The notes under the pieces are model-generated. The model was not told where the DNA came from, did no database searches, and saw nothing but the letters and a program-made list of their open reading frames with translations. From a virus: a stretch of DNA of 26,310 nt. A program made the position numbers and the translations under genes. The stretch lies in the IMG/VR virus record IMGVR_UViG_3300043395_001487, positions 1 through 26,310 of that record; one strand, given 5' to 3'. Below are positions 22,028-23,108 of the stretch, piece by piece (positions within the stretch are counted from its first letter, which is position 1; every line of letters starts with the position of its first letter).

Positions 22028-22099
22028 ATACCCCCTAGGGTATATATAAATACTCCCCAGGGTATGCTTGCCCACTTGGTCATATACCCCCTAGGGTAT
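22028..22099. promoter_or_regulatory. Array of three 16-bp operator-like palindromes
   Basis: ATACCCCCTAGGGTAT at 22028-22043, ATACTCCCCAGGGTAT at 22050-22065 and ATACCCCCTAGGGTAT again at 22084-22099. Arms ATACCC/GGGTAT flank a 4-bp centre; the middle copy differs at 2 positions. Start-to-start distances are 22 and 34 bp. A TATATATAAATA stretch lies between the first two. This is the layout of a repressor or activator site cluster, as in lambdoid switch regions. Confidence 0.65.
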
Positions 22100-22217
22100 C
22101 TGCTGGCATGGTGTTGTTTTTGAGAGACATGGTAGGGGGGGAGGGGTGTGTGTGGTGAGGAAGATTTGTAGGAGCCACCCAAACTCTGAAAAAGGCAATT
22201 TAGAAAACACAATGGAG

Positions 22218-22508
22218 ACGACTAGGTAGCAAGAAGAAGGTCGGACGAATGGTATAGGCGTGAGAAGGCAGTCGTAGCAATTCTCATGGTCTTGAGAATC
22301 CACTGACTAAAGTGGTGGGTGTCGTTTAGCGGTTAGGGTGAGTTAGTCCCTATGGTGGCGATCAGGTCGTATTACTGAGCTTCCTCAATGCGTACCATTC
22401 TTTAGCCACCGTCCCCTGACTTCCTGGTGAGGATTGCCCTGCTCTTCGCAGTGGGGACATCCGTATATCTCATGCCTTTGAGGGTGCGACTGCCACACCC
22501 GACATCCC
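22218..22508 (+). ncRNA. Candidate large structured RNA (closed multibranch domain)
   Basis: Stems seen by eye: ACGACT/AGTCGT (22218-22223, 22270-22275); ATTCTCA/TGAGAAT (22280-22286, 22293-22299); CCACT/AGTGG (22300-22304, 22311-22315); an enclosing stem GGGTGTCG with CGACATCCC (22317-22324, 22500-22508, one bulge); inside it TAGGG/CCCTA (22334, 22348), GGTGGC/GCCACC (22354, 22405) enclosing GGTCGTAT/ATGCGTACC and TGAG-CTTC-CTCA, GTCCCC/GGGGAC (22411, 22453) enclosing CTGC-TCTTC-GCAG, and GGGTG/CACCC (22482, 22496). The base pairs leave few gaps. One pair is U-G only if read on the plus strand, which weakly favours that strand; read leftward it would be the 3' end of the HNH message. No known RNA class recognised, and no promoter found. 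Confidence 0.5.
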
Positions 22509-22516
22509 TTTAACTC

Positions 22517-22969
22517 TTAACGCCAATCTGTCGAATCAAGGTTCGATTTGCCTATGTTACACGCCTCGCAAAGTACTTGCAAGTTGTTTTCGTCAAGTTC
22601 TAAGTCTGGGAAAAGCGACCTTGGCTTGATATGGTCGACATGGATATAACCACCAGTTTCCCCGCAACACTGGCATTTCTTACCAAACCTGACGAGCACC
22701 TTGTAACGGAGTTCCCGCCATTCCCTAGTCTTATAGAAGAGTTTGCCCATTCCGACCTGATAGACAGGGGTTGGCTCAAACTTGGGCTTTGGCTTTGGCT
22801 GGCTTTTCTTGGCTATGGCATAACCGATCTGGGATGCCTTTTGGTTGATCAAATCCCTGATGACAGAACTACTCATTGCCAGTTTTTCTAGCGTTTTCTT
22901 AGCCTTAGCCGCCTTTTTCTTGCGACTGAGCTTGACTGCTGCCATGCCCTGCTTTGTGTAGATTGCCAT
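22517..22969 (-). CDS. HNH endonuclease, 150 aa, divergent from terminase
   Basis: The frame is open to 23068, but the promoter on this strand (23096-23069) would start the message near 23062, so the ATG at 22969 (MAIYTKQGMAAVKLSRKKKA) is chosen; its ribosome site is weak. A Lys/Ala-rich basic N-terminus (residues 14-32) precedes the C-terminal HNH domain: KTREWRELRYKVL, CQCCGETGGYIHVDHIKPRS (CxxC and DH core), ENNLQVLCEACNIGKSN (Asn and second CxxC). HNH proteins next to terminases often assist cleavage of packaging substrates, but those are usually co-oriented; here it is divergent, so a free-standing nuclease is also possible. Confidence 0.75.
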   Translation of the reverse strand: MAIYTKQGMAAVKLSRKKKAAKAKKTLEKLAMSSSVIRDLINQKASQIGYAIAKKSQPKPKPKFEPTPVYQVGMGKLFYKTREWRELRYKVLVRFGKKCQCCGETGGYIHVDHIKPRSLFPDLELDENNLQVLCEACNIGKSNLDSTDWR

Positions 22970-23068
22970 GAAAAAAGCCCACTGGTAGAGATACAGTCGT
23001 GCCCCCTGCAAAGCAAGGGCTGTACCTCTGCCAATGGACTCTTTGTTCGGCACGAACGAACAATCCAT

Positions 23069-23108
23069 ATTCTAGCGCCTTGACAGTTTTTGTCAATGGG
23101 ATTACCCT
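23069..23108. promoter_or_regulatory. Divergent promoters sharing a TTGACA-TGTCAA palindrome
   Basis: TTGACA (23080-23085), 5 nt, TGTCAA (23091-23096): each arm is a perfect -35 for one strand. Leftward: TTGACA at 23096-23091, 16-nt spacer, TAGAAT at 23074-23069. Rightward: TTGACA at 23080-23085, 17-nt spacer, TACCCT at 23103-23108. A protein bound to the palindrome would control the HNH gene and the packaging genes together. Confidence 0.6.

Follow-up and report, generated by a model that had tools for sequence, protein, structure and literature searches.

A large, pseudoknotted RNA is encoded on the minus strand of the window, by which we mean the whole 26,310-nt stretch of viral DNA analysed here (positions 1 to 26,310 of IMG/VR record IMGVR_UViG_3300043395_001487), and the slot that it fills is often exchanged among phages that have otherwise identical packaging genes. 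The conserved core of this RNA, which we call type A, runs on the minus strand from 22508 to 22267 (242 nt), begins 8 nt past the stop codon of an HNH endonuclease gene on the same strand, and is supported by covariation both in 24 unique relatives and in an alignment that was not fitted to structure. A first-pass annotation of the sequence had proposed a gene-free structured element at this place, and covariation strongly supports a large structured RNA there.

The RNA is previously unclassified. Rfam holds no family for it, nor for the two RNAs that fill its position in related phages (types B and C), at gathering thresholds or at E<=5, and family models of group I and group II introns, RNase P, tmRNA, known ribozymes and riboswitches gave no match; ARAGORN detected neither a tRNA nor a tmRNA in the window, nor any in eight relatives. 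The exact A and B patterns are absent from 84,980 bacterial and archaeal genomes, and the region has no blastn match in isolate phages; for the type B locus the blastn comparison with phages spanned only part of the RNA, so that its absence there is weakly supported. No description of these RNAs was found in the openly searchable literature. The phages are freshwater (lake) phages of about 35 kb and have no close isolate, the nearest isolate TerL being less than 60% identical. No integrase was found in 19 records of relatives, and the phages are therefore probably not temperate. Genes for a replication initiator, SSB, an ERF recombinase and a RuvC-like resolvase accompany the packaging genes in the window. 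TerL is of the Terminase_6N type with hits to an RNaseH-like C-terminal domain (nuclease-type), and the neighbouring 135-aa gene, without a Pfam or PHROG match, is assigned as TerS by position only.

Covariation and fold of the type A RNA

The significance of the structure comes from comparative evidence and not from folding energy. Compared with shuffled sequence, as the first-pass annotation had suggested, the span 22218-22508 that it had delimited is unremarkable on both strands (plus: z -1.12, 30 of 200 shuffles equally good; minus: z -1.38, 19 of 200), and the trimmed core, at a z of about -3.4, folds alike on both, so that energy does not tell the strands apart. The search for compensatory changes in homologues, a check suggested alongside the first, spoke for the structure: when the helices of 24 unique type A cores (64 pairs) are tabulated and checked by hand, 26 pairs are compensated (both sides changed, still standard), against 7.6±1.6 in shuffles, of which none in 2000 reached as many, and 96.1% of the cells are paired compared with 91.8% after shuffling. 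Between the window and its most divergent relative, L268, 23 pairs are fully compensated and standard in both sequences, 35 are identical, three are changed on one side (two of these unpaired in one sequence) and one is unpaired in both. A plain MAFFT alignment unfitted to structure (A3) still contains 19 compensated pairs against 5.1 in shuffles, with a covariation score of 0.109 against 0.048, and when the partners are slid by one to three columns pairing falls to 34-47% and the compensated pairs to at most six. Unaided, RNAalifold recovers P1, P2, H5, H3 and most of H2, and the covariance model R1 matches the core over its full length with 218 bits, the window being part of the training set.

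Read 5' to 3' on the minus strand, helix P1 encloses a multibranch loop with P2, H8, H7, H10/H6 and H5, and is followed by H3, H2 and the 3' end; P1, P2, H2, H3, H5, H6, H7 and H10 are supported by covariation. The 5' strand of P1, GGG(A)UGUC (22501-22508), pairs with GACACCC (22317-22323), and three of the seven pairs are compensated, UGUC/GACA in the window being replaced by AGUC/GACU in L262 and by CUUUU/AAAAG in L268. The 5' hairpin P2, GGGUG-UGGCAGUCG-CACCC (22482-22500), has a stem that is compensated in L268 (GGGCG/CGCCC), and its loop (22487-22493) forms a pseudoknot, K1, of 7 bp with 22268-22274 within the 3' end CGACUGCC (22267-22274). The seven nucleotides CGACUGC and their partners are invariant in all 24 cores, so that covariation provides no test of K1 within type A, and its support consists of perfect complementarity and an equivalent pairing in type B. 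This is the 8-bp helix GGCAGUCG/CGACUGCC (22267-22274 with 22487-22494) which the annotation had described as closing the domain: the helix exists, with seven of its pairs invariant in the 24 cores, but it joins the loop of the 5' hairpin to the 3' end of the core, and the main closing helix is P1.

Of the remaining helices on the minus strand, H7, H10, H5 and H3 correspond to stems that the annotation had placed inside its closing helix, and together with P2 they proved real and covarying. The H7 arm GUCCCC/GGGGAC (22411-22458) carries two hairpins, CUGC-GAAGA-GCAG and UCCU-CACC-AGGA, and is compensated among relatives, where the second hairpin becomes CCC-GAAA-GGG, the other CCGU-GAAAA-ACGG in L268; a hairpin of H7 is confined to the clade of the window and L268. 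H10 (GGUGGC/GCCACC, 22354-22410), which encloses H6, reads GCAGGU/ACCUGC in L268 and has three compensated pairs. In the hairpins H5 (UAGGG/CCCUA, 22334-22353) and H3 (CCACU/AGUGG, 22300-22315), five of six and four of five pairs are compensated (four of six and three of five in the unfitted alignment), and in H2, AUUCUC-AAGACCAU-GAGAAU (22280-22299), three of six, with a loop that is invariant in the cores used. The outermost stems of the annotated element (about 22218-22260), on the other hand, fall outside the conserved core, in a linker that varies in length and sequence among relatives. Type A further contains two near-identical 8-nt loops, AAGACCAU (22286-22293) and AAAGGCAU (about 22473-22480), both closed by CUC/GAG; the two hairpins are invariant except for the H2 stem of L268, and, judging from their sequences, the paired loops are possible protein-binding sites.

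The assignment to the minus strand is drawn from GNRA apical loops and from sigma-70 promoters that face the RNA. Among short perfect hairpins, GNRA loops occur in seven contexts on the minus strand and none on the plus strand of type A, and in ten and one, respectively, in type B (17 against 1 for both types together); L268 possesses an additional GUC-GAAA-GAC hairpin in the minus reading. Variable G-U and A-C events in type A are balanced, with about five of each, some of the G-U pairs fitting the plus strand, and one G-U in L081 (type C) is consistent with plus, contrary to the minus call. The plus strand was considered first and was rejected on account of the apical loops and promoters. 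The annotation's separate plus-strand RNA, ending at a convergent HNH stop, has consequently to be reversed: the RNA begins after an HNH stop codon on its own strand.

Three unrelated RNAs in one slot

A search with the neighbouring TerS yielded 80 loci. In almost all of these relatives blastn finds a conserved block from 22132, and only some matches extend through 22508; in L002 and L005, with a TerS identical to that of the window, the match breaks at 22265 and resumes at 23073-23077. Clustering revealed three unrelated cores at this one position, type A (as in the window), B and C, which pattern scans located in 31, at least 120 and 27 stretches, respectively; a scan with an HNH profile added further divergent members of type A, above all L268 and L262. 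The copies of A, B and C with enough contig adjoin terS, and all TerS loci with at least 450 nt upstream carry one of the three types except the partial locus L271, which is also one of three untyped TerS loci, the other two being truncated type C.

The three types have their flanks and tail in common and show no detectable homology between their cores. Homology of A to B or C was considered and rejected: at E<=5 the type A covariance model fails to match loci of the other two types, and we therefore regard the common loop-to-3'-end topology as an analogy. In type B this pairing covaries (its fifth pair is standard in 76 of 109 sequences, against a shuffled mean of 42 and maximum of 57), and in type C P1 covaries from GGGUGUC/GACACCC to GAGUGUC/GACACUC. 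By eye, one part of type B recalls the HDV ribozyme, a comparison that was dropped because Rfam gives no match and the likeness is not conserved across type B.

Identical 310-aa TerL segments accompany different RNA types in four sets of phages (A/B or B/C). A tree of 135 rows requires at least 30 changes of type, compared with 41 (minimum 36) for random labels; near-identical branches are poorly resolved, which makes the figure of 30 soft and the identical-TerL cases firmer, and the number of swaps is uncertain because common flanks could yield chimeras in metagenome assembly. The window's own arrangement, at least, recurs in L006 (99.6% over 1,557 nt); its breakpoints relative to L005 coincide with the -10 element and the core's 3' end.

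Two further observations concern the surroundings of the slot. One contig of 35,041 bp (L098 and L100) has type A RNA at both ends, overlapping by about 229 nt, which would mean that the assembly is circular or that a terminal repeat lies in the RNA. L271, L063 and L023 have long insertions between the RNA and terS with tRNA-like stretches (e.g. GTTCGAATC), in which ARAGORN finds no tRNA.

Promoters, tail and the HNH gene

Most type B and all type C upstream sequences (80 of 90 and 13 of 13 unique ones, against 6% of shuffled ones) have a minus-strand sigma-70-type site of at least 9/12 whose end precedes the RNA by 5-12 nt. Type A has no promoter at the RNA itself (0 of 21); here, all 15 unique loci have a strong sigma-70-type site (at least 10/12) at a distance of 96-101 nt upstream of the HNH start (1.7% in shuffled sequence). 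In the window this promoter for HNH and RNA is TTGACA-N16-TAGAAT (23069-23096, minus), with 11/12 of the consensus. A candidate divergent promoter of terS, TTGACA-N17-TACCCT (23080-23108, plus), was read directly from the sequence; its -10 element is weak, and the promoter scan did not return the site. The two have a palindromic -35 region, TTGACAGTTTTTGTCAA, in common, and with this arrangement the polymerase may have to choose between the two promoters, serving one at a time.

On its 3' side the RNA is followed, on the minus strand, by a tail common to A, B and C phages (22132-22266), which blastn matches in nearly all relatives, then by variable palindromic repeats and the leftward genes. 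The tail consists of the variable linker (22201-22266), differing in length and sequence among relatives, and a C-rich, G-poor, rut-like tract (C 0.37, G 0.12) ending in CACCACACACACCCCUCCCCCCCUAC (22132-22157); it has no stable fold (z +0.7), and no U-run terminator follows the core. A pseudoknot of a G/C-rich tract with a hairpin loop of the tail was dropped, the pairing not being kept. The palindromic repeats (22028-22110 in the window) read ATACCCCCTAGGGTAT in the window, and in the same place relatives have arrays of AGGGTTTACCCT or TTAGTTAGTGTGTGCTTACT, or CCGACCGGTCGGTTAATTAA.

The HNH gene (22517-22969, minus) encodes 150 aa from a conserved start at 22969, a longer reading of 183 aa to 23068 not being conserved. 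Its product is an ordinary phage HNH protein (phrog_144), in which Pfam finds only PF01844 (41.4 bits, cut-off 21.4) and a weak HNH_5. Of 39 type A loci, 38 have it; the remaining one breaks off 34 nt beyond the point where the search pattern starts, and among the type B loci listed none was found. The nuclease thus lies within the cassette that replaces the allele: HNH is present in each A locus that reaches it, and A and B sit on near-identical flanks. The linkage suggests homing of type A, with the HNH protein as a candidate homing endonuclease that would spread it.

The 5' leader of the HNH mRNA is a second structured RNA (22970-23065, minus), in which a pseudoknot between a hairpin loop and a downstream partner, itself covarying, is accompanied by a 10-bp stem and then UUUUUUC-AUG. 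All 29 pairs are kept in five of five sequences, and ten are compensated (0 of 500 shuffles). The 10-bp stem is terminator-like and abuts the start codon, so that the leader, by its predicted fold, resembles an attenuator or a riboswitch. In type C phages (L063) the leader stands before a small ORF as well.

Possible functions of the exchanged RNA

By description, the nearest kind of known RNA are GOLLD and ROOL, large ornate phage RNAs that are pseudoknotted and form cages and whose function is unsettled (PMC12286853). GOLLD combines a constant 3' with a variable 5' region, its members often exceed 800 nt, and it usually lies near tRNA islands (PMC12286853). The RNAs described here are likewise phage-encoded, elaborate and noncoding, and their constant tail with an exchangeable core is broadly like the organization of GOLLD; they differ in a core of about 242 nt, in the position beside terS and in the absence of any tRNA found, and the GOLLD and ROOL covariance models in Rfam match neither A, B nor C. 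A further large noncoding RNA in a gap without ORFs is the abundant transcript of about 800 nt of the lytic phage ICP1, of unknown function (PMC7567579), which is longer, adjoins lysis genes and is set beside our RNA by description.

The first-pass annotation had thought of the packaging RNA of phi29-like phages, which has 174 nt (120 are sufficient) and is present in five copies with gp16 (PMC11476376). A plus-strand RNA of this kind would suit the position next to terS and terL, the stable closed fold of the core and the G-U pairs that fit plus, but we strongly disfavour it and regard it as very improbable: TerL is nuclease-type rather than a gp16-type ATPase and stands with a gene in TerS position, the RNA lies on the opposite strand, diverging from terS, with GNRA loops and promoters on minus, and the pRNA family model is not matched at gathering or E<=5. 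Moreover, the RNA type is not tied to TerL and shows no co-evolution with the motor, and three unrelated RNAs, with identical TerL segments carrying different types, would be difficult to explain for a component of the motor; rapid replacement by an unrelated RNA without a change of TerL speaks against a part of the packaging motor and in favour of an accessory trait on which selection changes. The chance is just as slight that the inverted repeats are kept as DNA, be it as pac or cos site, origin or recombination hot spot. The place beside terS, among palindromic repeats, would agree with such an element, but helices nested over long distances, together with a pseudoknot and GNRA loops that show compensatory change, are characteristic of RNA, promoters are aimed at the element, and three unrelated versions would need to play one DNA-site role.

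Two other explanations bind the RNA to the transcript that contains it. Type A could be the partner or product of the HNH gene, as a 3'-UTR RNA that would be bound by the HNH protein in an RNP nuclease or would control the HNH mRNA, for which its linkage to HNH, its position against the HNH stop codon and the lack of a separate promoter argue. The adjoining HNH-encoding ORF also recalls the HEARO/OMEGA RNAs of IscB and IsrB; here, however, the protein is an ordinary HNH-only one of 150 aa without RuvC, PLMP or other IscB/IsrB domains, the RNA lies 3' of the gene, no HEARO match was found, and B and C fill the slot without this HNH, so we hold this explanation to be improbable. Alternatively, the RNA and the constant rut-like tract could be a cis-acting leader of the leftward operon that would set how far the polymerase reads on, by antitermination or attenuation. 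This idea is modelled on HK022 put and the Bacillus EAR element, which likewise are structured RNAs near an operon start with no intrinsic terminator after them, and the three cores would be replaceable solutions to one task; a role in antitermination is hypothetical here. The unstructured tract without a U-run terminator that follows the types, the promoters immediately in front of B and C, and the lack in the window of a minus promoter-like site (at least 9/12) between tract and leftward genes are in favour of it. On the other hand, the leftward ORFs mostly begin 300-450 nt further on, beyond the variable palindromes, moderate promoter-like sites (at least 9/12) occur there in 84 of 121 relatives (44% expected by chance), put and EAR elements are much smaller than our RNA, and frequent swapping is not obviously predicted by a cis switch. 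On balance, we consider such a leader possible though unlikely.

The explanation that we favour, and to which we give a somewhat better than even chance, is that of an exchangeable accessory RNA, driven by host sigma-70 and acting in trans, whose alleles are swapped and whose type A is driven by HNH homing. The RNA would be made early by the host RNA polymerase and would engage a factor of the host or of a competitor, for instance the defence, transcription or translation machinery, with different alleles favoured at different times; the HNH protein, as a homing endonuclease, would carry the type A allele into backgrounds of type B or C, and type A RNA might be cut out of the HNH transcript or work within it. 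More tentatively, and with somewhat less than even confidence, the three unrelated pseudoknotted RNAs might be 'antigen-like' alleles, kept diverse by the selection that host defence or rival phages exert, and an attached homing endonuclease would spread one of them.

The RNA resembles a trait for competition or defence that can be swapped, or an element of transcription control, more than it does a component of the packaging machine. Unrelated RNAs that replace each other on near-identical backgrounds constitute a natural swap experiment: the task of the RNA must be one that A, B and C can all perform, and differences between the phages that bear them point to the selected function. At least three comparatively supported RNA classes and a structured HNH leader, all absent from Rfam, are added to those known. 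In the more tentative case of 'antigen-like' alleles, the trait exchanged at this phage locus would be a large folded RNA and not a protein.
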